DNA of 64,000 nucleotides from NCBI GenBank assembly GCA_963969395.1, contig OZ017795.1, positions 8,804,001 through 8,868,000 on the forward strand. The letters are read 5' to 3'. The notes under the pieces were generated by a model, which searched no databases, had not been told where the DNA came from, and worked only from the letters and a program-made list of their open reading frames with translations. Positions 4,561-63,400 of this stretch are shown piece by piece. The DNA comes from Pseudoscleropodium purum (taxonomy: Eukaryota > Streptophyta > Bryopsida > Hypnales > Brachytheciaceae). Every line of letters starts with the position of its first letter. Positions within the stretch are counted from its first letter, which is position 1. Position numbers and translations under genes: made by a program.

Positions 4561-4839
4561 AAACAAGAAGCTTCATAACTTTCACATTATTCATCCAAAC
4601 GGAATGAATCAAATCTTCCTATGTACACAAAAATATAATCTATAAGAAATAAATTTATAAAAGTTTTTTGGAATTATTTTGCTATCCTACCTTCTTGAAA
4701 AAAAAGTCTATGGGTACCTTCTTGAACCTTCAAGAATACCCTAAAGGGTTCAAAAACTTACCAATGATCTCGATTTCATAGTTTCAAAAATCTTGCCAAC
4801 AATCAAGATTATAAGTCCTTTCTAGAACCTTGAAGAGTC

Positions 4840-28243: not shown

Positions 28244-28777
28244 GTGGGGTGTTAGGAGATTAAACAACCCATGTGGGATATCTAAATTAGGATTTATAAG
28301 AGTTCAACCACTCATAGCAATTAATTCAAAAGCAAGAATTGTGTTCAAAGTAAAATTTTAGACCTCATTTAGGCAAAGTAGAATAACTTCTTTTTTTAAA
28401 ATTTAACTAAATTAATGTGGGAAATCATGCTAAATTCCGAGGCTAAGTTTCATCTCCAAAAATTTGTTTGAGATTTCAAGACTCCAATCAAAAGTTATAA
28501 ACAAAGTGTAAAGAAAGATCAAAAGGAACACTTTTCTTTGACAATTTTCAAACATTCTCCTTAAATTTTGTCCATAAATTGTTTTTAGAGGCTCAAATCA
28601 CTAAATGGTTTCTATAAATGAAAGTTAGCTTCATTTTCCAACATTTTTTAGTTGAAATTTTTTTGATAAAATTTTTTTCTATCACCCTAAATGAAGTCTA
28701 AAGTTTTGCTCCGAATACAATTCTTGTGTTTTTGACAATGAACAATCAAGCTCTCATTCTTCAAATTGTTCCATGCC
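28244..28777 (+). mobile_element. Long foldback (inverted-repeat) element, copy 1
   Basis: The left half (around AGCAAGAATTGTGTTC and TTTTAGACCTCATTTAGG) is an imperfect inverted copy of the right half (around CCTAAATGAAGTCTAAAG and GAATACAATTCTTG). The arms are about 230 bp and diverged. The outer left end carries GTTAGGAGATTAAACAACCC followed by an ATGTGGGATAT motif. The same structure recurs in opposite orientation at 31.6-32.1 kb, so this is a repeat family, not a chance palindrome. No coding sequence is present and no superfamily can be assigned. Confidence 0.55.
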
Positions 28778-28779
28778 TT

Positions 28780-31590: not shown

Positions 31591-31598
31591 TTCAAAGG

Positions 31599-32107
31599 AT
31601 ATGGGACAATTGGAAGATGAGAGCTTGACCACTCATTGTCAAAACATAAGAATTGTATTCAAGTTAGAATTCAAACTTCATTTGGGCTTAGTAGAAATAA
31701 TTTTAAAAAAATCTTTTGGTTGAAAGAAATAATCAAATTAAGCTAACTTTTAACTCTAAAAATTTGTTTTTGATTTTGAGCCTCTCCCAAAAATTAATGG
31801 ACAAAATTCCAAGAAGATATTTGAAAATGTCAAATATAATGTCCCTTCCAATTTTTCTTTGAACTTTGTCCATAACTTGAATTGGAGCCTCAAAATCTCA
31901 AATAAATTTCTGGAAATAAAAGTTAGATTGATTTTCTACATTAATTTAGTTTAAATGTCTTTTAAAAAGTTGTTCTACACTACCTAAATGAAGTCTAAAA
32001 ATCTACTTTGAACACAATTCTTGCTTTGACATGACTATGAGCAGGGTTAAGCTTTTACTAATCTTACATATCCCACATGGGATGTTTAACTGCCTACCAC
32101 CCCATTT
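31599..32107 (-). mobile_element. Long foldback element, copy 2 (inverted relative to copy 1)
   Basis: The left end (GATGAGAGCTTGACCACTC, ATAAGAATTGTATTC) is the reverse complement of the right arm of the copy at 28.2 kb. The right end (ATCCCACATGGGATGTTTAAC, up to CCTACCACCCCATTT) is the reverse complement of that copy's left end. The two arms again pair with each other around CTAAATGAAGTCTAAA. The size, about 510 bp, is close to copy 1. Confidence 0.55.
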
Positions 32108-32109
32108 GT

Positions 32110-35100
32110 ATAACCATCTTATCTTTCTATCATCCTATAATAATTAAGAGGTTTATGACGTTGTGTATGAGACTTCATGCTTGAGGTGAGTGATAGTCTC
32201 AATTAAATGAACCCTAAAATATACATTTGTGTAGAATGAAGATATTGTAGATTGTTGAAAACAATTTATTTTCTTGGACTTATGTGCCAAATTCTTGAAA
32301 ATTAAATTTTAAAGTGCCGAACTATAATTCTGAACTTGAATTAAATATTTGGCACCAAAGTGCTAAACATGCTATCTAAGTATTGTAGAATTAGGGTCTC
32401 ATGTAAAAATTTGAAGTGAGAAGACAATTTCTCTCTAAGAACTTAGCTTGCAAATTAGAGCAAAATGTTGTTTTTAAAATTGCCCCAAAATTTTGACAAT
32501 GTGACTTTGTCAAGCTTTCAAGGCCAAAAATTCAAAATTCTTTTGCAAGGAAGATTCAAGAACTTCAAATTTGAGTTGGACCTTGACTTTAAAAGTAATA
32601 AAATATTGAAGGCAAAATGATGTTGCCTTCCCCTTGTTTGAATTGAGGCTCCCAAAAAAATGCATTTTTTTTCAATTGTTGAATCTTTGTATAAATTAGA
32701 ATACTTAGAGGCTTGTTGTTTCTCTAATATCATCCAAAAAATGAGAAAGAAGAAACAAAATTTGATACTTCATTTTAGATGCCCATATTTTTCAACATTT
32801 GTTTCAACTTGCAAAGAGCATTTATTAGGGATCAAAAATGTTTTTATTTTTTTATTTTAATGTTTTCACTTTTTTTAATAATTTGTACATCAAGGTACCT
32901 AGTTTTTAAAAAAGGCCTGAACTAATTAAATTAGGAAATAAGTGTGTTTTTGTACTTTGTTGATTTTTAGGATTTAGATTTTTTTCAACCTTTTTTCCGA
33001 AAATTCATGGTACTCTCAAAGTCTAAGTACTACCCCTCATTGCAAGTGTTTATGCTTTCACCTTGAACTAAAAGTTTTGACCTAAAATTAGTGTCAAAAA
33101 TCTCAAAAAAATGTCTTCTAAATAACCAAAGTGTTTAAAGGAATGTTGCTTTCGATGATATTTAATACATTGAACTTGGGGTAGCATTTTTAATTTATTT
33201 AGATCTAATGTGCAATCAAAATATGGATACTTTTAATAACCTTAGCCTAAATTTTAGACAATATTTAGAAATAAGTAAGCATCACTAAAATGCAATATTT
33301 CTCATTATAAATAATGAAGGGTAGGAGATAATACACAATTTTATCAATTTTTTTTCTAAGGTATACTAAGCAAAAAGATCCCCCCAAAATTTGAACTTTA
33401 AAAAACTATGGTAAGTAGAATATGAATATCTAAGGAACTAGATCTTGTGCTTTTGTAGACAATAGCTATGATTACTAGTGGATGAAAATCAATAGATGGG
33501 TTGCGATGGATGATGTTCACTTCACATTCAGGTTTACTGGTTTAGTCTTCGTCTCTGAGGAATTAGAGCTTGGATCCAATTCCAAATTCCAACAGATTTT
33601 TCCTTCATTGCTTGTGAATGCTCCATTTCAATTTAGGGTTGCTCTCTTCCAATTTGTCATTGCTTTAGTGATCTTCAACAAAAGCTCTAAGAATGCAAGA
33701 ATTTTTTTTTAAGTTGTGAATGCAAGCGGTTTAAAGGTTGGGAGTTGATTGTAAGCTCATTGTAGGTTTATGATGTTGAAGAATGCAACTGCTTGTATAT
33801 TTTTTGAAATGCAACTATACCATTCTTAGGAAGAAGTTTGAAGGTTAGGGTCTTCCTTTCTAGGGTCAAAGTGAGGATTTGGGATTGAAGGAGGTGAAAA
33901 TTATAGGATTTGAAATGCCTTTTAATGTACTAGAATGTATTGGTTGTTTTGAAATGTTTTGAACTTCGTCATACTCTATATAGTATCATACATGCATGCC
34001 AAACTTTTAATGATAAACTCTCTTTTGATCCCATAAATATTAGTGAGAATTGTGCAACTCTTCCTTATTTATAATGAACATAGGGTAATAAAAAAGAACA
34101 TTAATTTTTTTTAATGAAAGATAGGGTTTACAAAATAAGCACAATATAGAAATTTAGGTAAAGATATCCCCATATAAATTCAAAAAGTTTACCTACATAA
34201 TCCATGTACATAGGGGCTTGAATGCATGTGATTTCTAAAGATACTATATAGTGCACTCTTCAATATATTAACACAAATTACTAATACATTGTCATCTACT
34301 TAGTTAGTGATTTAAAAAATCAATCATTTGTGTAATTAGAATACAACAATAAATCATTATGCTAGAAGAATTACAAGGAGTCCTTTGGGTGCTCATTTCT
34401 TAATTAAGTCAAGAAAATAAGTGGTCTTCAAAATAATTATTTTAAATCAAGAAAAGTGAGAAGTCCACCAAAGAATGTGAGGAGTGCACTTTGAAAAGGA
34501 TTATCTCCTTTTTCACTTTCACATAGAGTTTTTGTAAACCATTGCATCTACTAAGATTGGTATTGAAGCCTAACCACCTTTTTGTCGTAATTGTGAGGTG
34601 TACAAAAGAAGGATTTGAAAACATTTGACCCTTTGGTGTGTAATGTGCTTTTATTAATACAAGATTATTTTTTGAAGGTGCAAGGAAGCTCCCATGGACT
34701 TGGATGGTTTCTAGAATTCATGAAATCTCAAAAGAATTATTTTTTACAATTTAAGTTATGTCTTACATTGATTTGAAAGTTTTATAAATCTCATATACAC
34801 ATAAAACACAAAAATTAATGAAGCATATTCTATCACCTATTCTACATATGCTATTACTAGCCTATTCAAGAGCAAATTGTGGAAGGAAGGTTCAAATGCC
34901 TTGCCAATTTTTCTATTGCACAAATATGTCAATTGTGATGGTAGCCATGCAATTGCTTTTGTAATAAATATCGTGTGAAAGTTTAGTAGAGTATTGAGTT
35001 TGAAAACACCGTAAACTTAATTCATACAAAGATATTTGTATGTGAATACAAGCATATATTGATTGCATATAGAAATAAAAGTCTCATGCTACTTATATAC

Positions 35101-39790: not shown

Positions 39791-39959
39791 AAGACCGTGG
39801 ATTTCTCCACGACCTCCACCTTTTCTATCTCAACCCTTTTCTTGAACTAGGGCTCAAGGTTAATTTTTTGATGTTTTTAAATAATATAGTTATTTACAAC
39901 ACGACAACGTATAAAAAATTTTAACAAAAATATTTCATATTCATATTTGAAAAAATTAT

Positions 39960-40758
39960 TAAATTTAGAAAGAAATAGAGAATGGCTTAAAATATTAAAT
40001 TGTTAAGAATTTTAGTTATGGATTTGAAAAATGTCAATGCCAATGGTTGTAATGTTATAATAAACAATCTACATCTTATGATTTTATCCTTTACAAAAAT
40101 ATTGAAAAATTGAGTTCAATAAAGGACTTCAAAGTTTATTTTAGAGTAAACATTCCATAACTACCAACATACTAAACTCTTCTTAAGTTTCATTTTGTTT
40201 GTCAAAATAGAATGATTCAAAATTTTCAACATATATATAAGTTTAGAAAACCAATTTCAATATTTTATTTATGAAAAAGTGTTTTTTTTAGCTCCCAAAT
40301 TGCATGGACTCCAAAAAAAACTACACTAAATAGTGAAATTAGGTTGCCCTAGACTAATTTGTTGAAATTCTACACTACATAAATATGTGTAATTACTATA
40401 GAAGAATGTAATAAATATGAATTATGAGTACTACATGGATTGGTGCACTAGTTCATGGCTCAAGTTTAGAAAATTGCATATGCATCTATTTAGCCAAGCA
40501 ATGAGTCATGAGGTAACTTCTCTCAATAAGGCAATCTAATTCTTAAGGCAACCTAATTTCACTATCTAGTATAGATATCATATAATAACTTTCTAACCAT
40601 GTAGTCAGAAGTTATGAAAATTATTGCATTTTAAAGATACTCTTCAATCACACATTGTGTAAAAATTTCAAAGAAAAAGAATGAAAATTCCATTTGTAAT
40701 TGGATGACCAAAAAAGCTATATTACCCTAAAACTGCTATTTGGTTCTTTAGGGATTAA
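39960..40758 (-). mobile_element. TTAA-family element, copy F (3' truncated, with nested MITE)
   Basis: On the minus strand the element starts at TTAA (40755-40758) followed by TCCCTAAAGAACCAAATAG. It then carries the family motifs CATAACTTCTGACTACATGG, ATTGAAATTGGTTTTC, AAATAAACTTTGAAGTCC and CTAAATTCTTAACAATTTA. The 3' terminal third is missing or too decayed. The body is split by a MITE at 40321-40574. Confidence 0.6.
40321..40574. mobile_element. MITE nested in TTAA-family copy F
   Basis: Terminal inverted repeats of about 28 bp with two mismatches: left 40321-40348 and right 40547-40574, core ATAGTGAAATTAGGTTGCC. The family sequence of the host element continues on both sides, which shows this is a later insertion. 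No clear target duplication is seen, so the superfamily is open. Confidence 0.65.
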
Positions 40759-40759
40759 T

Positions 40760-42565
40760 AAAGGAACAAAAAATGAAGTCTCACAAACATGTAAAGGCAA
40801 AAGAAGGGCTTCTTTTGACATGATGGAGTCCCATTTTACAATTTGAGAACCATCAATCTCAAAAAGGCTAGCACTTTCTATTCAAAAGGCCATCTACTAA
40901 GGTCATAAGATCTAATTTTTTTATCATCTTTGAGGACTTCTAAGTCCTCGAAGTTTCTTATTAGTGGGATTCTAGATTATTTGCTATCATCTAATAGAGA
41001 CAATGGGGAACTTAGATCAAGACAAAGGTAATTTTATGGCTATGTCATTGTTTTACTATTGACTAACATAAAAAATAGGGCTAAAAGGAAAACTTAGATA
41101 TTTGGCAAGATGAGTTGTTATTGCACAACTATTGATTTCTTGAAGCACATTCCCAACCATGGCCTCCACTCCACCAACTCATATTGCCTAAAGGAATCAT
41201 TATAGTATCTTCAAGGCATTGTGAATACCGTAAGGCATCATGTCTCCCAATAGATGCACCATTATATAAGTGTTTGATCTTCATCTTTGAGATACAACAA
41301 GTACAATCAAGCTCTTTGTATTTTCAATGTAGAATTTTTAATGGGTGTCTAGGCATTGTCAAATTTCACCTTCCAAGCAATGTACAAATTGTATTTTATG
41401 CTAAATTCTAATGGATCTAAGAATAATTTTTAACTAAGTAATCTCAAAAGTTAGAAATTTGGATCAGTTTTGGGAATGTAGGCTAGAATTTTGGTCCTCC
41501 AAAGAAAAGTTGATCAAACTTAGATTTTAAGTGGCTAAAATGGTAGAGTACCTGATACCTTCTACAAAATGATAAAATATATATGAATTAAAGTTTCTTA
41601 CTAAAAGTTATTCACAATTGAAGTTTTGCTTCTAAGCTATCTTTTCAAACTTCATTCATCAATTTCTACTAACCTATTAACCTAAATTTACTTTCGATTT
41701 TAAGGTTCATATTGAAGTTAATTCTAGTTCCAATCATTCTATTTCACTTATATTGTGCGGGTAATTACTACTTTCATCCAATTTGGAGAGCAAAGTTCAT
41801 CCTACATTATCTTCTTTAATTATGATCTATTTTCTAATTGTGAATTAATTCTAGAATCCTTCAAAGATTTTCTAAATGATTTATGCTGTCTAATTGTTCC
41901 TTGATTATTTTTAGAAGATTCTAATTGACTACCTACTTGTTACTTAATACATTAAACTTCTACTTCTATTAAATAAAGATTTTTACTATTTTTAATTTGT
42001 AAATCCTAAAATTACCTATTTAAAATGTTAAGACACTAAAAGATTGAACTTTCCTACTAACAATTATAGATGGATGAATTTTGACCACCATATAGTACTT
42101 TCAAACTTCATTCACTATTTTCTACTAACTTAAATTATCAAATTGACTTTTCCTTCAAATTTTGACCCTTGACTTAATGTACATTCTAATATATTTTTTG
42201 ATTTTATTTGGATGATTTTTATTAATTTTCATCTACTCTAACTACTAGACTTAATTAATTCATATCTTCCTTGATTCTTATATATTTTAAAATTTTAATA
42301 TGTTTTTCAAAACCTCTTGAAATTCACTAATCAATTCTAAATTCAATGCTAAGTTTTGATAGACTCATAAAGGTTTGACCTAATCATTTAATCCCTAATT
42401 CTAATTTCTAATTCTATTGAAAAGGTTGTCAATCAAAGAGCTAAATTCAAGCACATTCCTCTAGAATAGACATGATAGTCTTGTCTTCATGCACCATAAT
42501 TATGATTGATATATAATATCCATCACCTTCAATAGTTTGTTGATTTTGTTGGCTTTTAGTGTACC
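40760..42565. other. AT-rich intergenic DNA with a degenerate duplication
   Basis: A block around TTCAAACTTCATTCATCAATTTCTACTAAC near 41645 recurs in diverged form near 42100. No gene is supported. Confidence 0.4.
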
Positions 42566-42567
42566 AC

Positions 42568-43487
42568 TTAATCCTTAAAGCCTTAAACATGCTTTTGTAA
42601 GAAGTTCACTACAAACAAAATTTTTATTTTTTTTCTTTGAAAATTTCATACAACATGTGCCTAAGGATTAGCTTCAAGTTCCAACAATTTTCATAACTTT
42701 CGACTACATGGTTAATAAGTTATTGTATGATATTTCATTTTAGCAAAGTGTAGGCAACTTGGGCAACTCAAAAGAATTATTTTAAAATCACTTTTTTAAA
42801 AAATAAAAATTTGAAATTGGTTCTCTAGATTTGTATATACCTAGAAAGCTTTTAATTGTTCCATTTTTATTAATGAGATGAAAGTTATGAGAAGTTTTAG
42901 TTTGTAGGTAGTTATGGAATCTCTACCCTAAAATAAACTTTGGAGTCCTTTATTTAACTCAATTTTCAATATTTTTGGAAAAAAATAAAATCATTGGATG
43001 TAAATTGTCTATTACAACACTACAAGCATTTGGATTGGCATTTTTCAATTCTATAACTAAATTCTTAACAATTTAGTATTTTGAGTCATTCTCTACTTTC
43101 TACTTACTATTTTTTTCCTATATGTTGTACATTCTAAATGATTTAAAAATTTCAAAGATGTAGCCAATTTGACTTAAAAAATAAATCTTAAGAGTAACCA
43201 CCATTTTGGACTTTTTTTCATACAAATGTGACCTTGTGAAGTGCAACTGCCCTTGTTTTCTGAGGGCCAAAAAAGGAATTTTTGTCAATTCAAACTCTAA
43301 TATCTTGTAATCTACATGGTGGAAATTTTGAAATTTTTTCTAAATCTTTTCAAACCAATGTACTACAAGATCCTACAATTAAATGTGTCCAACAATGGGA
43401 TTTTTTAATTTTTTTGATATTTGTACTAAAAATGGTAATTTTAGAGCATTTTTGGTGAAAATATAGTCAAATCCTTTTAAGCGTTAA
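42568..43487 (+). mobile_element. TTAA-family element, copy A (920 bp, both ends)
   Basis: Bounded by TTAA at 42568-42571 and 43484-43487. Ends are TTAATCCTTAAAG and CTTTTAAGCGTTAA. Internal order: CATACAACATGTGCCTAAGG, CAATTTTCATAACTTTCGAC, CTAAAATAAACTTTGGAGTC, CTTAACAATTTAGTATTTTG, GTGACCTTGTGAAGTGCAAC, CTACAAGATCCTAC, GGTGAAAATATAGTC. The element has no coding capacity. This order is shared by copies B, C2, D, E and F. Confidence 0.7.
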
Positions 43488-43489
43488 AG

Positions 43490-44100
43490 AAAAAAGTTAT
43501 AAAGGAAATTGAAACTCTAACTACTCTTTGTAAGTTCTTCACTTATCTCTCCCTATCTCTCCTCTATAAAAATTTATTTAAATTCTCTATTATATTTTTA
43601 CTAAACCTAAATAGTATAAATTGCCACCATTGACTTCTACTACTACCAAATATGTCTAATAAGCTTAGGAATCAAAGTAATGGGATGACATAAGTATCAT
43701 TGACCCTTTAGCATCTAATTTAATGCATTTAGTATATATGCTAATCAACTAAATGCTTGGAATCAATCAAACAACAATTGTTTAGTCCAACGTCAAACCT
43801 TCATTAAGATAGTCAAATTAATCTCCATGCCCCTTTAATGTTGATTGTGCAAGTGACAATGCTTCTTTTGTCTTCCCCTCTTAAACTCTGAAACCCCGCA
43901 CTCTTTAATCAGAATTCGTATTTTTTTCTTTTTACTTTTTTTTTTTCGTTCTCTCTCTCAAGTATGCCACATTTTTGCAACCAAAATTTCACAATGAAAG
44001 GTTTTGTGTAAACAAAAAGGGTCTAAAGCGAATTTGTCAAGGCCCATAGTGAACTAGGTAAAGCCTAAAGCTCCAGCAATTGCTTGTCCAATCCCTTATA
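43490..44100. other. AT-rich spacer
   Basis: No supported feature. A pyrimidine-rich run lies near 43920-43960. Confidence 0.5.
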
Positions 44101-44545
44101 CCATAGTCATAGATCTCGTTCGAGCACTTTGGATTCACAACCATCAAATCTCACCCAATTACTTTGTAGACACTACAAGAAAAAGGAGTGTTTTAAATGA
44201 GTTTTTAAATGTAGTCCTAAACATAAGATTATAAGTAATGATTGTTAAAGAGATTTTCAGTAAAATTTTACTAGAAATACATGTATTTCTAGTAAAATTG
44301 TTAAAAATGTTCTCAAAAGTCATTACTTTTAATCTTATATCTGAGACTACACTTAAAAAATCTCTTAAAACACCCTTTTCTCTTATAATGAGCCAGAGCC
44401 ATTGATTTCACCTAATCTTTTGCAACCATAGTTGTTAGATCTCACCTATTCCCTTGCACTACAATTATCAAATCATGTCAAGCACTTTGTAGCCATAGTT
44501 AGTCATCAAATCTTGTATGATCCCTTGGATCATAACTATAAGAAC
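44101..44545. repeat. Degenerate tandem array, unit about 36 bp, split by a MITE
   Basis: Successive units resemble CCATAGTTATCAAATCTC followed by ACCTATTCCCTTGCA, with variation in length (about 31-40 bp) and sequence. About two units lie before and four after the MITE at 44171-44390. Typical unit starts are CCATAGTCATAG, CAACCATCAAATCTC, CCATAGTTGTTAGATC, CAATTATCAAATC and CCATAGTTAGTCATC. Confidence 0.5.
44171..44390. mobile_element. CACTA-type foldback MITE, copy 1
   Basis: Starts CACTACAAGAAAAAGG, the characteristic plant CACTA/En-Spm terminus. The other end (CCCTTTTCTCTTATAATG) is its mutated inverse. The whole 220 bp is nearly one palindrome centred on ACATGTATTTC. Flanking triplets AGA and AGC agree in two of three bases, close to the 3-bp target duplication of this superfamily. 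Confidence 0.75.
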
Positions 44546-44559
44546 TCATGAAGTTGTTA

Positions 44560-46285
44560 TAGCCATGTGGCCCTAATAATTGGCTAGTAGTCAACTCCTT
44601 TAATACAAAGCCTTGGGGACAATCTATTTAGCCTTAGACCTTGGGCTTTGGTTTATTGGCTTTGACCATTGGGCTCTAATTTTGGTTTATTTTGTATTTT
44701 TGATTGTTTTGGTTTCCTAAGACAATAACTAATTCTAACTAATGATGGTTGGAATTTTTGACCAACCAAAATTTGGCCAAAAGTCCACCTAATGACTCAA
44801 AATAAAGTGAAGGACAACAATTTCAGGAATAAACTAACTTTTAAACAATGCAGGTTCAAAGCTTTGTCATCATGGACGGCTTACACCAAAAAATTAACAA
44901 TGACAGGAAAATATTCTAAAAATACAAAAATGCAAAGATAGAGCTTTGCCATAGACAAACAATGGCAATGAAGAAATAGCTAGAACAAAAGCAAAAGAGC
45001 AAAAATATTGAAAGATTGCTTTCAAAATTAATCCACACAAAGCCAAAATTTTGTTGTATAGAGTACAAGCTAGACAAAAAGAAACAAAAGGAAATTATGT
45101 GCTAATGCCAAGTAGAAGAAAAGGTAAGAAATTCAATAAGCAAAATGAAGGCAAACCTTAGTTAATACTTAAAACATTAAGAATTCATCAAAACATATGT
45201 TGGTTTTAGGAGGAATTCTCGAACCAGATAGAGATTTTCCACACAAAGAGTTAGTGCAAGATTCCCACATAGAATTTAGGAAAAGGCTAAGGGATTCCAA
45301 CTAGCAACCTAGCCAAAATTTGGTTGGAACCTCCTTTTGATTAGTATGTGACTTAAAAATCTCAAATAACCAAATATTGAAAGACCTTAACTACCAAAAC
45401 GCAAGACTATAAATCCAATACTTGATAGGACCGTTATATCTTTCAAAAGGTGCACAAGACACTTAGAAAAATGAGAAATATGCTCAAGGACCATAAAGTA
45501 GACATAAAATGGCCAAATTGGCACAAAATACTATATGACAAAAATGTTGGTTGTTTGACAATAGAAATGGGGGTGTTTTAAGAGAGGAAAGGAGGGCCTT
45601 TTATGCTTTTTTCAAGGCCTCCCTCTCCTTTTTCTAACCTCTAGAAATTCTTAGAATAAATCTCTAATTAGTACTAATTATTAGAAAAAATGAAATCTAT
45701 TGTTGGATCCTACTTAACTTTTGGAGAAAAGCTCTAAATGACAAATTGTGCCATTGGCTTTAAAAAATCTCCCAAATTAAACTAGGTGATCCTTGTTTCT
45801 ACTCCTAGGTCATTTGGGCTCACAAAAGTTAGGTAATTGTCAAGAAAAAAAATGTAAGAATTCCAAATGATAGAATTTTCATTTTAAAAATATTTTGATT
45901 TTCCTAAATTGTTATAAGGAATTGGGGCATAAGAAAAGACTCTTCTTTGACCTTGTTTGAATACTACAAGCTCCTAGTAAGCCCATCAAGACATCAAAGT
46001 CATTCAAATTTCACTTAAATTTGAGGATGTTGATGGTTTAGTTACTTGTCAATGTCATAATGCGTTGAAAATTATTGGGATGCATTATTATCACTAAAAA
46101 TTTCTCTGAATTTTTAGTGGAATTTTACTACAACCTAGATAAATTCTAAGAATTTTCCATCATTGGTTTGAGCTATTGACTTTCTATAGAGTCAACTTCT
46201 ACATTTTAGAAAAATTTGAAACTTTTTAGGTAACTTTTAGGAAGCTTGCAAATACTAAGTGTAAGCTCATATTCCTACTTTGCAC
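44560..46285. other. AT-rich intergenic DNA
   Basis: No supported gene or complete transposon seen. Confidence 0.5.
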
Positions 46286-46294
46286 TATTCCTAA

Positions 46295-46507
46295 CAGGGT
46301 TGACAAATCAGTACGTCCGCCCCAAAATAGCGTCCTTCCCGCCGTCGGAAGGCGGACGGGCAGGGCGGACATGGCGGACGGGGCAGACAAGCGGACAGGC
46401 AGACGGGGCGGTCCCGGTGGACGCTGTGGCCGCCGGGACTGCGAATGTCAACGGACACAGCGTCCGCGTCCGGACGTCCCGGACGTCTGACCGTCCTGTC
46501 ACCCCTG
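46295..46507. mobile_element. hAT-type non-autonomous element with GC-rich core
   Basis: Starts CAGGGTTGACA and ends TGTCACCCCTG, an 11-bp terminal inverted repeat with one mismatch (CAGGG(T/G)TGACA). It is flanked on both sides by the identical octamer ATTCCTAA (46287-46294 and 46508-46515), a perfect 8-bp target duplication. Eight-base duplications and CAGGG termini are diagnostic of the hAT superfamily. The 213-bp body is strongly GC-rich and made of GGCGGACGGG/GGCAGACGGG-like units, in sharp contrast to its AT-rich surroundings. Open frames of 64-89 codons through it are repeat artefacts. Confidence 0.9.
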
Positions 46508-46519
46508 ATTCCTAAAAAG

Positions 46520-47330
46520 GTAAAAAATTAATGACTTCCTTTAAATCCCAATGGAAAAAAATCTTTTCACCAGAATGAAATGTTGATGAACTCATTTTGC
46601 CATTGAGCTCTTGACTTGTTTATAAATCAAAAATACTTTTCCTCAATCTTTGGTCGCATTGTCCCTCATTTAACTTAAATTATTACCTACAAGGTCAACA
46701 TCTAACTTTCTATGGTTTTCTTGAATTAGATGGTGATCAACTTTTAAATGGGTTGACTACAAGAATATCAAAGGCTAAAGGGACTCTCTATCGTAGACTA
46801 TTGACTTCTATTTTAATCATGTTCTATCGCATGCATTTGCAAGTTTAGTTCATTCTCTAATGAAAATCTCTCAATAGTTAGGCCTAGCCGTCTAGCTATC
46901 TCTAGGACCCTAATTGTCTCTTAGATACCTAATTAACCTTTCAAATATCTAACCAAATCCTAAAAGCAAAGAATTAGAATGCTTTATGCACTCCGAGCTT
47001 CTAGGAGGACAAATCATTGTATTAGTAGGTACTTCTAACAATTACAATTTGAAGACTAATTTTTTTACTTTTGACTATAAATTCTACTAACTAAAAATGA
47101 AAGCAAAGAAAAAAAGTTTCTAAGACCAAAAGTAATAATCCAAATTGTTTTGGATAGCATGTCCAAAACTCTTCTTTTACTTTTAAAATTTGGCAAGTAT
47201 GTAGTCTATATGATAGAAGATGAAAATGTCAAAAAAATAGTCATATATAGTGTAAAAATCTTGCTCTAAGAATTAAATTTTGCTCTCCCTATTAAGCAAA
47301 GTTAGAAAAACAACTTTCCTTCTAACTTCA
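46520..47330. other. AT-rich intergenic DNA
   Basis: No supported feature was seen. Confidence 0.5.
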
Positions 47331-47535
47331 AACATTATAATTTTTCAATCCCCGTAGTTGAAGTTTCTGAATTTTTTTCCATAGATTCTTATAATAGTCT
47401 AGTGCAAATTTATATAGTTGAATTTTGAAAGAAAAACAAATTTTTTATTTATTTATTTTTCACTACTCTAAAAAGTGACAATTTTTTACAATTTTCGTCC
47501 AAAATGTGCCTTGGTCTTTTAGGGGTAATACTTAA
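47330..47535 (+). mobile_element. Diverged 3' part of a TTAA-family element, copy G (weak)
   Basis: Resembles the last 200 bp of copy A in motif order (CATTATAATTTTTCAATC, a poly-A/T tract, AAAAGTGACAATTTTTTACA) and ends with GTCTTTTAGGGGTAAT, close to the family's CTTTAGGGGTTAA end. The exact TTAA is lost. Confidence 0.3.
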
Positions 47536-47539
47536 ACAA

Positions 47540-49795
47540 CACCAAGGGTCATTTGGAACTTAATAATGCTACAAATATAGCATACCTTTACAAAGATAGA
47601 ATGGTTAGTGTTGTTCCATCTTTAGGGCCCTATTGCCTTTTTTATTAATAATTTTAATATGATTATATATTTTAATTATAAAACTTCAAAGTGTTGAAGA
47701 TTTAAAATTTTAAAATTTATAGATTTATAGATTTTTAATTGTATTAATTTCTATACTTGTAAAATAATTGATAGAATTGATAAATTTGAAAAGTTGAAGG
47801 TTTTATATTTAATTTTTTTAATTCAGTTTGAAAATTAATTAATTAATTATCTTAATTCATTAGATTTGAAATTGATTTTTATAATGAAGTATTTTCAAGT
47901 TGATAGAACAAAATATTCTTTAATACTAAATATTTTTTATATGTTGAATTATTGGCATTAGAAACAATTTCTTTGGGATAAAAGCTAACTCGCTCATTTT
48001 TGCAATCATAGAATACTTCATGTTATAACATACTCCTTAGTTGATTCCAAGGAATAAATTAATTGAGGAATGAATTTTTTGAGGAATTCAAACTTATTGT
48101 TATTTGGAAGTGCGAAATCATTGAATGTAAAATGAATGAATTTTGGAAAATTCAATGTAAAATTATAAACTTTTCATATTAAATAATGCACAAATCCTAA
48201 ATTATCAACTTTATTATAGAAATTCCCTTTTCAACATCATTATTATTAAGAGCTTTTGGAATCTTGTTTTTTTTTGTATTTGCAAAAAGATATTTACAAA
48301 GTATCTTTAAAAATCTAATTTTTCATTTTTTTGTCCTCTCTTGAATAGCACAAACAAAGTCAAGTTGTTGTTAATATCAAATTGTAACTATGATAATCTA
48401 TATGATAATGACACATATGCATCTTCTTTGGAAAGAAGATATTCTACTTTCTAAAATGTAGAGAATGATATACATGATGCAAATTTTCGATATGTCTTCT
48501 CTCCATTGAAAATGATTCTATTTAGGAGGATAAATAAAAGTGTAGTTGCAAAGTGACAAGTACAAAAGTTGGATAATGTACATGTATCTTGATGAAATGG
48601 TGTCAATTCTAGATACAAAAAGAAATCAGCAACCCTTATTGTAAACCCTATTTTAGTGTACCAAATTATTATTTTTATAAAAAATAAATTTGTCCTTGGT
48701 CATAATGTGCATTATTTTAAATTCTACTTAATTATTTAAATACAATTTTCTGAATCCTCAAAATTTAGACTCGTAAATTCAATAAATTATGTGCATTATA
48801 GATTCTAATCTTCATACAAAAAATCTGAACCTATGAATGCATCATACAACTGTAAGATGTAAATTGAATTCATTGTCCTATTCAACAAATATTTTGAATG
48901 CAAGGGCATTAAGATGTAAGAATGATTTATGTTGCAACCTATTTTCTCTATAATGGCTAATGCAATTCCATGCTCTCAATTCCAAAAAAAAATTCAAATA
49001 TTGTGAGAATTTGCATATTTGTTAAATTATGAATATTTTCAATTCAATAAATTTCACTTCCTTCAATTTGTGTACAACAATCTGAAATGAGGTATACTAA
49101 TATGCCAAGGTACAAAAAATATTTTTTGAAGTTCTAAGAAAAAATTGACAAAATATAAAATAATTCCAAACTATGGCATACAAAACTAAGTTTTAGACAT
49201 GGCTAATTTTGAAGTTATTTTTTTTTCAAATCACAATTAATTTTTCTTTCAAAGTTCTATAATAATATCTTATATATTGCATACTACAATTTTTGTATGT
49301 TTTACTTTTGGACTTTGCCCATTGATGTTTATGGTATGGTTCTTTGAATAAAAAAGTTTCAAATCTATAAGAAGGCAACACTTTTTGATAGTACAACATT
49401 CATGATGTATTATGGCACTCTTGATTGTTGCCTTCAAAATTCACATTAAATGCCCTCTATATATGATATGGTGGACATTTTTTGGGAGGTAGATAGGAGA
49501 TGTTGTAAGTGTGACAATTAACAATTGAATATATAGAGGTTAAATATTAGAGTATTTAGCTTCTAACCACTAGTCATTTATTGTAGGGAATGTTTTAAAA
49601 GGTCAAGGTGAACTAACCTCCTTATCACTGGTCAAAGATAAATGTAAAAAATTGTCCCCTATTTTGTGTTGCATAAATTTTGTCTTCCTTCATTTCCCTC
49701 ACCTAGTTTGTAGCCTCTAATTTCCAATATGAATTTCCAAATTTTATCATTTGTGGCAAATAAAAAATTATAGTGAGAATTTTTTCCAAGGATAA
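47540..49795. other. AT-rich intergenic DNA
   Basis: No supported feature was seen. Confidence 0.5.
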
Positions 49796-49796
49796 C

Positions 49797-50355
49797 TTGA
49801 CCTCTAAAGGACCAAATAACATTTTTTTGGCAAAATAGTGATTTGGGCTAGCTCACTACAATTAGAATTTTATTTTATTTATTTTAAATTTTTACACAAC
49901 GTATAACCGAGGAGTAGCTTTAAGATGCAACAATTTTCATAACTTTTGACTATATAGTTAAAAAGTTGTTGTCTGATATACAATTTTCATTTTTGGTAGG
50001 CAACCTAGGTAGCTTACAAAATTCTTTCAAAATCAGCTTTTTTTAAAATAAAAATTAGAAATTTGTTTTCTCTATATATACTCAAAAAACTTTTAATCAT
50101 TCCATTTTGATTAATGAGATGAAGGCTATGAGGGTTTTTAGTTTGCAAAAAGTTTGAATCTCTACTCGGCAATAAACTTTGAAGTCCATTATTTCACTAA
50201 ATTTTCAATATTTTGAGAAAAAAGAAAAAAGCATTGGGTGTAGAATATTTATTTCAACATTACAACCATTGGGATTGGCATTTTCCAATTCCATAACTAA
50301 ATTCTTAACAGCTTAGTGTTTTAAAATCATACTCTACTTCTTTCTATTTACTATT
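49797..50355 (+). mobile_element. TTAA-family element, copy B (3' truncated)
   Basis: Begins TTGACCTCTAAAGGACCAAA, with the TTAA mutated to TTGA. It follows the family order: ACACAACGTATAACCGAGG, CAATTTTCATAACTTTTGAC, CAATAAACTTTGAAGTCC, CTAAATTCTTAACAGC. It stops near 50355, where the GC-richer island begins; the 3' 350 bp are absent. Confidence 0.55.
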
Positions 50356-50369
50356 CTTTTTTAGCATGA

Positions 50370-51320
50370 ATTTGAAATATTTTTGTTTGAAATTTTACGT
50401 AGTTATTTACAACTTATTTCTTCAACGTATTATGGAGGGTAACAAATTGTAGGATATACACATCTTTGTGTAAAAAGTTTGAAAGATGAAATCTAACCAT
50501 TTGGGTCAATTCCCACAGGCCGTACATTTTGACGTAGTTCCTGGTATTCTATGGAATTTCCCCCTTTTTAGTTTCGTTGTGTCAGAGATGAGGGTCTGGG
50601 CGGTGCGGGCACTCAGGAGGGGGGGTCGGTTATGGGCACCACTACTTCCTCCCATGTGTATTTGCCTCCCCACGCCATGCTCTGAATTTAGAAATGATGC
50701 TTGGTGGCTGATCATGAGGCCCCCCAACTATATTTTGGGAGCTAGAAAACAAAAGCATGAAATGGAAGCGCCTGCCCAATATCTCATGCAATCTTGGGCT
50801 CTCCTTTTCCAGTGGTCAATGGAGGTGGGAAAGACTAAATTGGGAGCATTGGGGCAGTTGGGATCAATACATTAGTTAATAATAAGGTAGGATGACGATA
50901 CTCAGTGCAGCACATGCATACCTTTAGGATACTACTGTCAAGAATTGGAGGTAAAAGAGACTGAAGAAGAATTCCTAAATGCTGGCAAGGGCAGCTTTTA
51001 ATATGATTCCAGGGCTTGTTTGGCAGCAGGGAGTTCCCCAAGTTTAGCATTCGTTGTCAGTTGCACTTCCCCCACACCTCTTCAACCGACTAAACTTGAC
51101 CCCCTTGAATGAGGAGCTGGTCACTGTGGAAATCATCTGTTTTGGTACCTTGTGAATTGTTGGCTTAAAAAAAAATGCAAAAGCTTTCATTGGAAGTCAA
51201 ATTATTGTAGGTGACCTTTCCTTTTCACATAAAATTCGGAGGATGAATAGTTGCAATTCTATTTAGCATGGAGAGATTCTTGTGTCATTCATTAGCTGGG
51301 AAATGTCCATGCGTCAACTA
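50370..51320. other. GC-richer island, no recognisable gene
   Basis: A patch of higher GC lying between two TTAA-family copies. A 129-codon frame on the plus strand (50486-50875) has unusual Trp/Pro/Leu-rich composition and no recognisable motif. Overlapping minus-strand frames are equally long for their size, which argues against coding. It could be relic single-copy DNA between transposons. Confidence 0.3.
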
Positions 51321-51324
51321 TGGG

Positions 51325-51436
51325 TTAATCCCTAAATGCCCAAATTGCATTTTCTAGCAACATAGTGAATTTAAGTAGCTCACTACAAATAGAATTTTCT
51401 TTTCAGACAACATGTGCCCGAAGAGTAGGCTTCGAT
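51325..51436 (+). mobile_element. TTAA-family element, copy C1 (5' fragment)
   Basis: Starts TTAATCCCTAAATGCCC at 51325 and matches the first 110 bp of copy B (GTAGCTCACTACAAATAGAA, ACAACATGTGCCCGAAGAG). It stops where the LINE remnant begins. Confidence 0.5.
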
Positions 51437-52006
51437 TAGAGGACATCTAGGACTATGCCCAATCCATTGAATATCATTTACTTGACTCTTCTTTAGTGCT
51501 AAGTCCTTATAGAAGATTGACTACAATTCACTGTATATTTGGCTCAGCACTTCTTCGTAAATTTAGACAGATCAAAACACTTTGGTCTCTCATTTGAGCA
51601 ACAACTCTTTGGCTTTGTTGGATTACTTGTAATCAAGTGGTCTTTGCCCAATTTAGATGGCCTATCCACTTTCTTCAAAATTCACTCTAGGAGGCTCTCG
51701 TCAACTTCGGATGGGCTACCTTTTTAAAGACCCAACAAGCAATCATGATGCAGCTACTTAGCTCTAATAGGATTTGGAGGCAATTTGACAATACTTGGCT
51801 TCATGATGATCTTTTAGCTAGTAGTGAAGGGCATTCCATTAGTTGGACTATTATTGGTCCTTCTTCTTGCTCTTTCTTTTGATATTTTCTTGGTTATTTT
51901 GTTTGTGCTCTTCTTTCTTCATTTGACCAGCCTTGCGGCTTGGCTATTTTTTCTTGCTTTTTTTTAATGCAATGACTCACCATTTGTGATCAAAAAACAA
52001 AAAAAG
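51437..52006 (+). pseudogene. LINE (non-LTR retrotransposon) 3' remnant
   Basis: One frame starting at 51439 reads, with in-frame stops, a zinc-knuckle-like QSIEYHLLDSS, then RKFRQIKTLWSLI, stop, ATTLWLCWITCNQVVF, and FDNTWLHDDLL. The pattern ESIEHLLxxC followed by TxLWxxWxxRNxxVF is the zf-RVT and C-terminal tail of plant LINE ORF2. Internal stops include TAG near 51448, TGA where a Trp is expected, and a later TAG. The remnant ends in an A-rich tail (ATCAAAAAACAAAAAAAG) directly before a TTAA element. It is clearly dead, and only the 3' 0.55 kb survive. Confidence 0.55.
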
Positions 52007-52009
52007 CTT

Positions 52010-52921
52010 TTAACTCCTAAAGGACTAGGGTGCATTTTTTGGCATCATAACTTTTTTGGGCAAGTACATGTGAGTGAAGATTTCCATATTTTTGGCCCAA
52101 ATTTTAATAGAAGGTGTGGACGAGGAATATCTTTCATGTGCACTAAATTTCAAGACATTTGGAAATATGAGTCAAAAGCTATGGCCTAATATGTAGTTTA
52201 TTTGTCAATTCGGGCAATCCAGGTAGATCTTAAAAAATCACTTTTTTCAAAAAAAAAAAATTCATTTATATATATAAAGCTTTGAATCATTCCATTGTGA
52301 TCAATGAGTCAAAAGTTATGAGGTGTTTTAGTTTGCGGGCGGTCATGGATTCTCTACTCCAAAATAAACTTTGAAGTTCTTTTTTTAACTCAATTTTCAA
52401 TTGTTTTTGAAAAAAATAAAAATATTTGGTGAAGATTGTTTATTACAACATTACGATCATTGGGATTGGCATTTTGCAATTCTATGACTAAATTATTAAC
52501 AATATAGTATTTTGATTCATTCTCTATTTATTTCTACTTACAAGTTTTTTCTTACATGTTGTACAATTCCAAACGATCTCAAATTTTTCAAGCATGTAGT
52601 GAACTTGCCTTGAAGAATAAATCCAAAGAGTTTCAACTATTTAGGACATTTTTTCATACGAATGTGACCTTGTAAAGTGCAGCTGCCCGGTATTTTGCAG
52701 GGCCAAAAAAAAACTTTTTGTCAATTCAAACACTAATATCTTGCAATCTACACAATGAAAATTTCTGAAATTTTTTCTGCGTCTTCGAAAATTATTATAC
52801 TACAAGATCCTATGGTTGAATGTGTCCAAAAAAAATTTAATTTTTTTTGGATACTTGTCCTAAAAATGACAATTTTGGAGCATTTTTGGTGAAAACATAG
52901 TCAAGTAACTTTAGGGGTTAA
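52010..52921 (+). mobile_element. TTAA-family element, copy C2 (912 bp, both ends)
   Basis: TTAA at 52010-52013 and 52918-52921. Ends are TTAACTCCTAAAGGAC and CTTTAGGGGTTAA. The first 160 bp (GGGCAAGTACATG, GAAGATTTCCATATTTTTGG, CCCAAATTTTAATAG, CATTTGGAAATATGAGTC) differ from copies A, B and F but match copy E, so it belongs to a second 5' subfamily. The remaining 750 bp follow copy A. Confidence 0.7.
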
Positions 52922-54003
52922 GGCCCAACAATTTTCATAATGTTTGGCTACATAATTAAAAATTTATAGTATGATAATTATGTAATTTTCAATGCTTGGC
53001 AGCTAACTCCAAAAATTCTTAAAAAATCATTTTTTTAAGAAATAAAAATTTGAAATTGATTTTTTAGATTTACATAGACCTATTACAAAAAAATTCAGCC
53101 CTCATGAGGTCTGCAAGTTTTGAACCCCTCCCTCCCAATGCTATAAAGAAGAATTGAAAATATTTTTTATTTTTTTCATTCTTTTATTGAAAGCATCTAA
53201 TGTGGCATTAAATTTTTATTTTTATTTTTTAATATTTAAAAAATGTTTAAAATTTTCTTTTTAAATTTTTGTGTACTTACTCTGTGGAGTGCCAAAAAAC
53301 AAAACCTTAATGGCCCTCCCATGGTTCAAATTTTTCCTAATGTCTAAAGCTTTGAATCATTCTATTTTGATTAATGGGATGAAAGTTATGAAGAGTTTTA
53401 GATTACGGGTAGTTCATGATCCTTTGCTCTAAAATAAACTTTATAGTAAATTTTGTAGTCCTTTATTTAATTCAATTTTCAATATTTTTGGAATAAAATA
53501 AAATCATAGGATATAGATTGTTTAGTACAACATAAGAACCATGGGGATTGACATTTTTCAATTTTATAAATAAATTGTTAACAATATAATATTTTGAATC
53601 ATTCTCTATTACTCTCTACTTACTATTTTTTTTCATATATGTTTTACAATTCCAAATGATCTTAAAATTTTCGTGCATGTAGCCAACTTGCCTTGAAGAA
53701 TGAATCCAAAAAAGTACCACCATTTCAGAATTTTTTTGTGCAAATTTGACCTTGTGAAGTGCAATTGCTTGTGTTTTTGCAAGGCCAAGGAAAGGACTTT
53801 CGTCATTGTCACTTCAAATGTTAATATTTTGCAATTGACACACTGGAAATTTTTCCATCATCTTCTTAAACCAAATTACTACAAGATCCTACAGTTATAT
53901 ATGTCTAAAAATGTTTCTTTTTCAAAATTTTGGTATTTGCACTAGAAATGGTAGTATTGGAGTGTTTTTTGTGAAAACATAGTCCATAACATTTAGGAGT
54001 TAA
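52922..54003 (+). mobile_element. TTAA-family element, copy D (5' truncated, interrupted)
   Basis: Directly abuts the end of copy C2. Starts within the family sequence (CCAACAATTTTCATAATG), runs to about 53084, is interrupted by about 255 bp of unrelated sequence, and resumes at 53341 (AAGCTTTGAATCATTC). It ends with ATTTAGGAGTTAA, the terminal TTAA at 54000-54003. The interrupting piece is T-rich and contains GGGGTTCAAAAC on the minus strand; its identity is unknown. Confidence 0.55.
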
Positions 54004-54004
54004 G

Positions 54005-54565
54005 TCGTTAATGTGCCATGGGCTGTCGCCATGGCCCAAACAAAAGTAAAAGTAATTTTTGAATTCATAAAAACTTTGAAATTCAATAACTTTCACATGG
54101 TAGGTCCAATCTCCACGAAACAAAGTCTATGCACATCTCCGTGCATAATACTTTCCAATGTGACATGAACATGACCAAAAGATGTATGGTTTTAGAGTTC
54201 TCACCATAACAAACAAACAAAATAAAACAAAATAAATAGACTAACTTAAGGTATTGATTCTCAAGTAAGTTATGGAACTATTGGCATGGGAACTCTTGTA
54301 GGATACGTTCACAATTTCACACTAAGAAAAAAATATAAATCTCAGGAAGGTTAGATATTGAATACAAAATGAAGTAAAGAAAAAGAAGGGTAACTCTAGT
54401 CTAAATGAGTGGCATCTATTGGAAATGGCTCAATTATCTAAGTTAAGCCTCATTGACTTAGATGGCAAATACCATCCTTGATGGCTACATTAGAATATAG
54501 ACATTATAACAAAGAACCAACATGTTTCTTCCCTTCATGAACTCTTAGGTTTCCATATGATGATC
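54005..54565. other. AT-rich spacer
   Basis: No supported gene. Contains A-rich runs of AAACAAACAAAATAAAAC type near 54208. Confidence 0.5.
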
Positions 54566-55353
54566 TTAACCTCTAAAACTCTATGATTATGTTTTCACCC
54601 AAAACACTCAAAAATTGCCATTTTTGATATAAGTAATGAATTTTTCAAATAAAACTTTTTTTGACATGTGTAACCATAGGATCTTCTATTATGTTAACTT
54701 AAAAACATGTGGTAAGAATTTCAAAAATTTCTACCATGTGGATTGCAAAATATAAGCATTCAAATTCACTAAAATCATTTTTTGGGCCCTACAAAAAATA
54801 AAGTAGCCACACTTCACAAGCTCATTTTCCTACGAAAAAATGTTCAAAACAAAAATTTAATTATGGAATTGAAAAATGCCAATACCAATTGGTTGCAATG
54901 CTTTGATAAACAATCTACATCCTATATGATTTGTTTTTCCAAGAATATTGAAAATTGAATATTATAAAGGACTTCAAAGTTTATTTTAGAGTAGAAAATT
55001 GATAACTGCCCTACAAACAAAAAAATCCTCATAATGTTTGATTCATTGATCAAAATGGAATGATGAAAAGCTTTTCACATATATATAACTCTAGAAAACC
55101 AATTTCAAATTTTTCTTTTGATACAAGAGATTTTTTTATCTTCCTAGACTAACCATTTATAGAAAATGACATATTCGGTTAAAACCTAAGACTCATATTT
55201 TCAAATGTCATGAAATTTAATGCATATGAAAGATATTCTTTGTCACAATCTTTTATTAAAATTTGGGAAAAAAATATGGAAATCTCTAGTCATACGTACT
55301 TGCCCAAAATTGCTATGTAGCCAAAAAACACATGTTGGTCTTTTAGGATTTAA
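54566..55353 (-). mobile_element. TTAA-family element, copy E (788 bp, both ends)
   Basis: TTAA at 54566-54569 and 55350-55353. On the minus strand it starts TTAAATCCTAAAAGACC and shares its first 160 bp with copy C2 (GGGCAAGTACGTATG, GAGATTTCCATATTTTT, ATCTTTCATATGCATTAAAT). It ends in GGTGAAAACATAAT, then AGAGGTTAA. Some internal blocks are shortened relative to C2. Confidence 0.65.
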
Positions 55354-59115: not shown

Positions 59116-59116
59116 T

Positions 59117-59337
59117 CACTACAAGAGAAAAGGGTGTTTTAAGTGAGTTTTTAAGTATAGTCTTAAACATAAAGTTTTAAGTAATGATCTTTAAGGAGAT
59201 TTTCAACAAAAATTACCAGAAATACATGTGTTTTTAGTAAAATTTTGCTAAAAATCTCCTTAAAGGTCACTAGTTAAAATCTTATATCTAGGACTATACT
59301 TAAAAATTCACTTAAAACACCCCTTTTTCTTGTAGTA
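59117..59337. mobile_element. CACTA-type foldback MITE, copy 2
   Basis: Starts CACTACAAGAGAAAAGGG and ends CCCTTTTTCTTGTAGTA; the last base is changed from the expected G. The triplet CAT flanks both ends (59114-59116 and 59338-59340), the 3-bp duplication expected of CACTA elements. Size (221 bp) and sequence match the copy at 44.2 kb, and the halves pair nearly end to end around ACATG. Confidence 0.8.
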
Positions 59338-60499: not shown

Positions 60500-63400
60500 A
60501 GCATCATTGTTAAATACATACATGTCAAATCTGAAAAGTAGATGATGAATTTTGCAAAAGATGCCAAGCTTGCCTAGATTACGTAGATTTTTTGGGGCAA
60601 CATAACTTTAAGTCAGATATTCAATTTGTTTATTTTTAAATTTCCACAAAGAGGGTGAATGTCCTCATCTTGTGTCAGATTCTTAGAAACAACAATTCAT
60701 TTCTATCTTTGTCGTCACCTACCCAAATTCCAATTATCCTTTGATTGGACATTTGGTTTATTTAATCAAATATACAACAACAATTTTAGTATTATAAATT
60801 TATAGATTTAAAACATTAATTCCTAAAAGACCAAAAAATAGACATAGGTTTTCAGAGGAAGTTGGATTGGCTCAATTAGATTCAACTATGCTAAGATGTG
60901 AGTGTGATTGTGAGCCTAAGAACGGTGAGTGGGGATTGAATTAGTCTAGAGTCTAGAAATTTAAAACATGATGTAAATTTTAATTTTTTTTTGTTGAAAA
61001 ATTAACTGATTGATGTTCTTACAAAAAGTTTACTATATTTTGAAATATATAACCTATTACCATGGCATCCACGATTGTAAATTTTAGATTTAAAAGCATG
61101 GCAAGTTGATTCTATCATATGTTTTGAAATTTACATCATGTTTTAAGATGCCGTCTTAGGGTGTTTTGATCAAGTGAGAGTATAAATAATTAAAAAGGCA
61201 AATTTAAGGATGAGAAGAAGACAAATGCAATGTGAAAATATTACAGAATGTAGAACATTTTGTACATAATTAAATATTCTTTCATTGTAGCAAGGAATAC
61301 ATATATTGAAATATGAAAGTAATATTTTGCTACTAAAATTAGGGGATTTTGAAGATAATATAATGGTACTACATATTTACGTGATATCATGTTGATAGCT
61401 GTCAATTAATTTGCTCACTAGCACATCTTGATGATTTTGGTAGCAACAAACACTTGTTTAACTTCATCTAAGCTAAAGGTAGGAGTTTGAATGGGTACAA
61501 TCTGTCTTATATTCAAGTTTGTAGAGGTAATGAAAAATGTAATGATGGTGTTTGCAGTTTATGGATATGGTAGACTTTTCAATGGAAGTTCGATTTATAT
61601 TTCAATAATAGAGACAAGTATTAGATGGAAATTACAAAGTGTAATGTTATAAACCTTTTGCTTAGGGTCAATCCAAGACAAAAGTATAATAATAGCACTA
61701 AGTCTAGGATAAGGAAGGAAGTTCACTCCAATAATACTTGCAATAATATTCCTTGCAATTTTCCATTGATTGTAGTAATTTTTGGTGGATGTCTCATAGC
61801 TCCAAAGAACATGCTTGCCATTCCAAAAGGAAGGGATTTTTTAGGCGTGTACTGATCAAGGATGAGTTCACAACACTAACTCAAATATCCTAAACAAGAT
61901 AAATAGATGTCGAGGTGACATTGGTACACTAGACTATAGGCGAAATCCAACTTCTCTAAACTTGATGATTTTGGTGTACATAAGATTGGTATCAGTAAGA
62001 ACAAACCAAACCTTAGGGATCTTAGGTTAAATAAGAATATGAAAATATTTAGGTCCCCTTTGACGCATTATACAATTTTGTCTATCCAAAACTAAAAATC
62101 CTCGATCTAAATTTCCATGCCCTTATACTCACACTTTTGCCTTTTATATGAAGGGGCAATAATGGATTTACTATGCCTAACAATCAATAGGTTGCATTTG
62201 GCATGTATGTACTTTTGAATGGCATGACATTATTTCCTTGAATTGTGTGAAATTCTTGTTATGTGTTATTTGAATGTATTGCAATCTATTTTTAGTGTAG
62301 ATTGAGTATGGGGCATGATTGTGTTAAACTCTTGTATCGTAGTCTTAAATTGCACTCTAAAAATGGCTAATTTAGTTTGAATCCGAGGATGAGAGAAGTC
62401 AACCTTGTCAAAGTGATAGGAATCATTTTCAAATTCAATCAAAAGATCCAATTTCTTTCTGATGGACTTGAATACCTCTTATTCATCCAAGTGTGGAACT
62501 TAAAATGTAGATGTCTTATGTTCACTAAGTGCATCTACAATTTTCTTTCCATGTCTAGATGCCATAGCTATCTTTAGTTTCAAATCTTTTTTGGAGGAGT
62601 CTACTCCAAAAGGGCCTTTTTAGAGGTAAATCCTATCGATTATAGTCATCCGCATAAAGATATGAACCTAGTCATCACACTTAGCAAGGAACAAGTCAAA
62701 ATTGTGTTTCTTAGAAGTCTACATCCATTTGTTGTATATTGTTCCTACCAAGTTGTAAATTATAATGTCTACTAGTTCTTTTGCTGTTCATTTATGTAAA
62801 TATAATGAATGAAGTTATTATTCAAATGGTTTTCAGTTTAGGATTTAAAGTAAAAAATGGAAAAAATAAAATAAAGATTAAGATCATACCATTCCATAAA
62901 TCCACCCCATTAATGGTATTGAAAGTGCCAAAATGTGAGTCAATACTTGAGTTCACAAATTTCTAGTTTTGATGCAGCTCTGAAAGAGTACCACCATCAC
63001 TCATTTTTAGATAAATATTGTCTATGTCAAACATTGACATTGCATCCTTGTATTGCCTATAGAGTTGGATATGTTGATTCTAGAATTCTTTGGCAATTAG
63101 CTTCTCTTTGTGCTTGTGCATGCTTGTTATCCAATAGAGTAAGCAAGTCTTTTCATTGTTCATCATTGTAACAAATGAATCCCCAATCTATATACAATGC
63201 AAATTGCATTATGCATAGAAAACTTCATATGGCATCATGTTGTTTATTTTAAGACATGGTTATAGAAATAAAATAAAATAGATGGAACATTTTTACCATT
63301 TAAATTCACATGAAGGCCCATGATGAAGACAACATTTATCACTTAATCATTCAAAAGCATTATACAAGATTTAGTGCTTATAATGGTTAGTGCTTTTGCA

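Follow-up and report, generated by a model that had tools for sequence, protein, structure and literature searches.

Transposons that insert at TTAA have been described from animals, fungi and protists (PMC8086355, PMC9587614). For the piggyBac superfamily, the passages that deal with termini give CC[C/T]T directly after TTAA as the general end (PMC2872659), inverted ends of 12-19 bp (PMC2872659) or 4-24 bp (PMC10813416), and TTAG and ATTA among the rare duplications (PMC10813416). In corals, one CCCC-starting TTAA family of miniature inverted-repeat transposable elements (MITEs) was assigned to piggyBac, and a family with CCCCTCAG ends is listed in the same paper (PMC2872659). Here we describe a family of repeats with TTAA borders from the moss Pseudoscleropodium purum. 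It lies in a window of 64,000 nucleotides (assembly GCA_963969395.1, contig OZ017795.1, positions 8,804,001 to 8,868,000), whose first letter is position 1 in all coordinates below.

Accounts of piggyBac in land plants disagree. The earlier note on this DNA held that the superfamily is not established there. Two lists agree with it: piggyBac is absent from the six terminal inverted repeat (TIR) superfamilies listed in a review of land-plant transposable elements (PMC9033089) and from the seven plant MITE superfamilies listed in an Arabidopsis paper (PMC5454002). Five other sources go against it by naming piggyBac in plants, namely the lists of two plant reviews (PMC10794571, PMC10004981), passing remarks in a PiggyMac paper (PMC8086355) and a piggyBac paper (PMC10813416), and a table of fern repeats whose PiggyBac row gives 1230, which we take as copies (PMC6890710). 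By their titles, the seven references behind the list in PMC10004981 include no report of a plant piggyBac element. Among other text hits, the relevant part of PMC9277781 concerns a 9-bp duplication containing TTAA, and that of PMC10619864 has the word 'piggybacking' only. No recognisable description of a land-plant TTAA family with the ends reported here was found in the literature searched, mostly outside subscription journals.

Seven copies of the family (A to G) are present in the window, as found by self-comparison, sensitive searches with four copies and a profile search, the profile being built from the same copies. They are non-coding and measure about 0.8-0.9 kb where both ends survive. 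Copies A (42568-43487, plus strand, 920 bp), B (52010-52921, plus strand, 912 bp) and C (54566-55353, minus strand, 788 bp) are two-ended with TTAA at each end. The earlier note had reported seven or more copies with these three as the two-ended ones; its coordinates were exact and the number seven was confirmed. Two further copies, D and E, also have both ends, E lying outside the range covered by that note. Copy D (51325-54003, plus strand) has TTAA at both outer ends and is split by later insertions into a left piece (51325 to about 51430), a middle piece (52922-53082) and a right piece (53346-54003). Between them lie an insertion (about 51430-52003), copy B, which is thus nested in D, and a foreign piece (53083-53345). 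The insertion at 51430-52003 has an A-rich tail and looks like a long interspersed nuclear element by eye; it gave no Pfam match. Copy E (3978-4872, minus strand) is the most diverged, with its left TTAA at 4869-4872 and TTAT at the right. Copy F (39909-40758, minus strand) has its left TTAA at 40755-40758 and a different right part, and copy G (49797-50405, plus strand) starts at TTGA and carries the alternative right part of F. This part is common to F (39909-39945) and G (50361-50405), and none of copies A to D aligns with it. For neither F nor G could a right end be found in the window. Nested in F is a 230-bp element (40333-40562) with 16-bp perfect inverted ends (GTGAAATTAGGTTGCC) and TA flanks, Stowaway-like in these respects.

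Twelve ends could be read and aligned, and ten of them have an exact TTAA at the border, the left ends of D, E and F having been pinned with a TTAA-containing pattern, so that the set is not fully blind. With a TTAA rate of 0.0086 in the window, the chance of at least 10 of 12 is about 1e-19. When the 12 borders were slid by 1-12 bases, no TTAA was found at 22 of the 24 offsets, and one and two at the remaining offsets. Chance TTAA in AT-rich DNA was rejected on this probability and on the loss of signal upon sliding. Over the 20 bp just inside the border, ungapped identity was 0.59 among left ends and 0.605 among right ends. Outside TTAA it was 0.281 over all pairs (left 0.269, right 0.305), against 0.279 expected from base composition. 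Copies A, B and C start and stop at TTAA as the earlier note had claimed, and similarity running past TTAA, which it had named as a sign against such borders, was not seen among the window copies. The consensus inside the border is YYCCTAAAG (Y, pyrimidine), a part of about 9 bp common to left and right ends, which therefore read TTAA followed by YYCCTAAAG. All 12 ends have T as their outermost base, and the dinucleotide that follows TTAA is YY at ten ends and RR (R, purine) at none; the column table behind these counts covered 11 ends, the bases of the right end of E being added by hand from the same output.

Flanking direct repeats of 4-12 bases were sought with the borders shifted by every distance from 0 to 6 bases. 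In A, B and C, TTAA at shift 0 was the only one; in D the search found TTAA and, with the right border shifted, a GTTAA that overlaps it. Copy B provides an empty site as well. The right TTAA of B (52918-52921, unstranded) is followed by the interior of copy D. When B is taken out and one TTAA is left in place, D comes into register with its sisters G and F, each of which has a single TTAA there. Alignment scores with one, no and two TTAA were 41, 33 and 37 against G, 32, 24 and 31 against F, and 41, 36 and 37 against A. Judged from the aligned copies, the B-in-D site is a paralogous, not an allelic, empty site within the window. The earlier note had proposed to look for a single TTAA at flanks and empty sites, and this was borne out in the window at that paralogous site. 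The view that TTAA is part of the element, with the true duplication outside it, was rejected, since A, B and C have no other repeat of at least 4 bases and the empty site keeps one TTAA.

Open reading frames (ORFs) from outside the window match the family too. The minus-strand interior of A, B and D matched 19 of 27 candidate external ORFs at E <= 0.001, 17 of them from JGI and 2 from NCBI. By eye, at least two (P0137 and P0139) shift frame relative to the others, as expected of non-coding repeats; the alignment of these ORFs used 16 of the 19, P0137-P0139 being left out. The longest stop-free stretch in the copies is 82 codons. A protein-coding interior was rejected on that length together with the frame changes in P0137 and P0139. 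The left end of B and C, where the frame is open in both, matched all four candidate ORFs (E limit 0.01, all JGI). In all four the similarity begins at L-T-P-K and the preceding residues are mutually different. As TTA-ACY-CCT-AAA translates to L-T-P-K, this start agrees with a TTAA border. The four ORFs were not selected by TTAA; the agreement is at the protein level, and leucine has other codons. A plasmid DNA search, tRNA and Rfam scans, and scans of viral_contigs and genome_contigs gave no useful result.

Taken together, the TTAA borders, the unrelated flanks, the empty site with a single TTAA and the external ORFs identify a TTAA-targeting, cut-and-paste, non-autonomous family, and this mechanism is well supported. 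A transposase supplied in trans would have moved the copies, an enzyme of the piggyBac superfamily or one working in the same way. It would bind the YYCCTAAAG ends and cut there, and the cut ends would join a TTAA target through 4-nt staggered ends, giving the four-base TTAA duplication. Borders and target are backed by the anatomy of the copies; the enzymology we infer. The activity of the family is old, since copies A, B, C, D, F and G differ from one another by 0.27-0.42 substitutions per site. The distance of copy E to the others is 0.69-0.77 substitutions per site.

Which superfamily supplied the enzyme is a separate matter. Sola transposons make a 4-bp duplication, and Sola3 uses TTAA. 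A TTAA-specific family moved by a non-piggyBac transposase, from a plant lineage that is Sola3-like or undescribed, would have the same anatomy and mechanism as observed here. Three points speak for it: no transposase linked to YYCCTAAAG ends was found in the scanned stretches of the window, the CCYT motif stands one base away from its piggyBac register, and the TIR superfamilies listed in the land-plant review include Sola and not piggyBac (PMC9033089). Nevertheless, the land-plant Sola of that list is Sola1 (PMC9033089), and among the TTAA users described in the cited papers it is piggyBac whose ends, in the parts on termini, are C-rich and somewhat like those of the family (PMC10813416, PMC2872659). 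We regard such an origin as unlikely, yet as deserving real weight. Kolobok-superfamily non-autonomous elements also duplicate TTAA, as the family does (PMC9587614), but their termini are described there as 5'-RR...YY-3', and the XKol ends shown in PMC6004289 start with AG. None of the 12 ends here starts with RR and ten start with YY; in addition, the range given for Kolobok among plants is chlorophytes and rhodophytes (PMC9587614). Kolobok was rejected on the absence of RR-starting ends, and it is the least probable of the sources considered.

Families with shorter duplications are known from plants, and the symmetry of the ends bears on them. The TAA/TTA duplication of plant Tourist MITEs (PMC10004981) could by chance stand next to A or T and so look like TTAA. 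A 3-bp direct repeat, though, sets the ends one base out of register, and it takes a TTAA (or TA) duplication to make them symmetric, as the earlier note had observed for TTAA against TTA/TAA. The outermost T at all 12 ends points the same way, so a Tourist-like (PIF/Harbinger) family with a 3-bp duplication was rejected on both grounds and is very improbable. Slightly less credible again is a Tc1/mariner-like (Stowaway-like) family that duplicates TA and prefers TTAA as its site. The two central bases of TTAA are TA, and neither filled nor empty sites would differ in sequence from those of a TTAA duplication. Such a family must have the outer T at all 12 ends, something that targeting of TA gives no reason to expect; a plain TA duplication, in which the outer bases are free, was rejected on that count. 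The TA-flanked element nested in F has A and T as its outer bases, unlike TTAA, which indicates, from one case, that local AT-richness does not force TTAA. The ends of the family fit Tourist or Stowaway poorly.

We consider the piggyBac superfamily the best guess for the family, a somewhat probable but unproven membership. It is favoured by the combination of TTAA with C-rich ends and by the placement of the CCCC-starting coral MITE family with piggyBac. The duplication of TTAA that marks piggyBac is seen in the family, a TA duplication within a strict TTAA giving the same sequence. Other marks of the superfamily are a DDD transposase (DDE_Tnp_1_7, PF13843) with matching ends and excision that leaves no footprint. 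The motif CC[C/T]T occurs one base further in at 5 of 12 ends (CCCT at four, CCTT at one) and in the consensus CCCCTAAAG. The earlier note had spoken of piggyBac-like termini. The TTAA borders, the symmetric YYCCTAAAG and the non-autonomous nature stand, but the piggyBac identity itself is putative and CC[C/T]T falls in register at none of the 12 ends.

Related ends elsewhere in the window were sought with a left-end matrix that omitted the TTAA columns, matches scoring at least 13 being called strong. Outside the training set there were eight, with exact TTAA before 60820 and 4873. Three are one base off, namely the right end of E (TTAT), a more distant relative J1 (TTAG) and a match at 20646 (TAAA). 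The remaining three are preceded by ATTA (a second distant relative, J2) and by AGGG and ATGT, which bear no resemblance to TTAA. J1 (24643-25027, plus strand) has a similar end, TTAG followed by CCCCTGAAG, and J2 (47173-47529, minus strand) has ATTA followed by CCCCTAAAAG. TTAG and ATTA are the same as two of the rare piggyBac duplications, which may be a coincidence. The isolated match at 60816-60836 (plus strand) has exact TTAA and TTAATTCCTAAAAGACCA with a score of 17.9 and is possibly another element using the same ends. At 60816-62848, this match is followed 2 kb on by a weaker right-end-like TTTAGGATTTAA, a possible longer element that gave no Pfam match. At 4869-4900 (plus strand) lies a left-end-like motif, TTAATCCCTAAAGGAC, whose TTAA also serves as that of copy E's left end, as though two elements had met at a single target. 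At 20642-20676, two end-like motifs (TAAATCCCAAAAGGG and CATTTAAGGATTAA) face each other with almost nothing between, which could be a deletion relic or chance. These matches hint that more than one family may have used the same ends; we treat this as a lead, not a result.

Several observations weigh against a TTAA-specific family of piggyBac type. At the borders, the right end of E (TTAT) and the left end of G (TTGA) are one base off TTAA. In copy E, which has diverged most, the search for direct repeats yielded just short matches at shifted places and no TTAA; neither J1 nor J2 has an exact TTAA. Among the eight untrained strong matches, just two follow exact TTAA, three being one base off and three differing by at least two bases. 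The 9-bp motif alone is unspecific, as 13 of 131 matches with a score of at least 8 follow TTAA. The empty site of B lies directly beside another insertion, and the sequence of D is longer by one T at that point; the alignment with F prefers one TTAA over two by a single point. Of five comparable sister copies two carry TTAA at this site, the others reading TCAA (A) and TTCA (B and C). A 2-bp TA duplication with strict choice of TTAA would give identical filled and empty sites. As for the ends, CC[C/T]T stands directly after TTAA in 0 of 12, and the shared 9 bp or so fall under the 12-19 bp stated in PMC2872659, although within the 4-24 bp stated in PMC10813416. Finally, when 1-10 kb and 24-64 kb of the window were scanned against Pfam in six frames, no DDE_Tnp_1_7 or other transposase domain was detected, the sole match being a weak TPR under its curated cut-off. 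From 10 to 25 kb the scan covered two forward frames, in which the same method detected kinesin and armadillo domains. Nor did the window yield an autonomous copy.

Even with these points weighed, we give about an even chance to a broader proposal. A TTAA-specific cut-and-paste lineage, either piggyBac or an undescribed sister superfamily, would have been long active in a land plant and would have mobilised this family and perhaps others with YYCCTAAAG ends (J1 and J2, 4869 and 60816). An autonomous partner or its relics would then be expected in the same genome.

Other features of the window are as follows. A gene with kinesin and armadillo domains, KIN-UA-like, extends over approximately 10400-17950 and gave the sole strong Pfam matches in the window scans. 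We take this domain pair to mark the plant KIN-U group. Among the matches listed (best 120 of 271), two bear an organism name, Ensete and Quercus, and with the two domains they indicate a plant. A near-palindromic repeat whose ends are CACTACAAGA-like is present twice, at 44171-44391 and 59116-59336; its borders lack TTAA, and it resembles a CACTA-type MITE. A repeat pair of about 750 bp at 28226-29000 and 31382-32125, in opposite orientation and 72% identical, was unmatched by the family profile.

Where accounts of piggyBac in land plants differ, a family whose borders were checked, and for which a paralogous empty site and external copies are available, offers a concrete probe, TTAA followed by YYCCTAAAG, which would help to find the transposase and to settle the question for plants. 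If the family is piggyBac, the superfamily either includes an ancient branch in plants or crossed into them.

Among described systems, plant Tourist and Stowaway MITEs are, like the family, non-autonomous DNA transposons of plants with inverted ends, but the review that treats them gives TAA/TTA or TA as their duplication, against TTAA here (PMC10004981). Kolobok and T2-MITE elements share the TTAA duplication and have non-autonomous relatives; in the parts that describe their termini the ends start with RR, which is seen at 0 of 12 here (PMC9587614, PMC6004289). Sola elements of land plants are also TIR transposons, listed for moss and Capsicum; the listed type is Sola1 (PMC9033089). The coral MITEs (CMITEs) resemble the family in their TTAA duplication, C-rich inverted ends and lack of coding capacity, and an element-free allele is on record for them (PMC2872659). 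As described in that paper, they differ in being about 100 bp long with ends such as CCCTTTCCC or CCCCTCAGTG, whereas the elements described here are about 0.9 kb long, end in YYCCTAAAG and reside in a plant.

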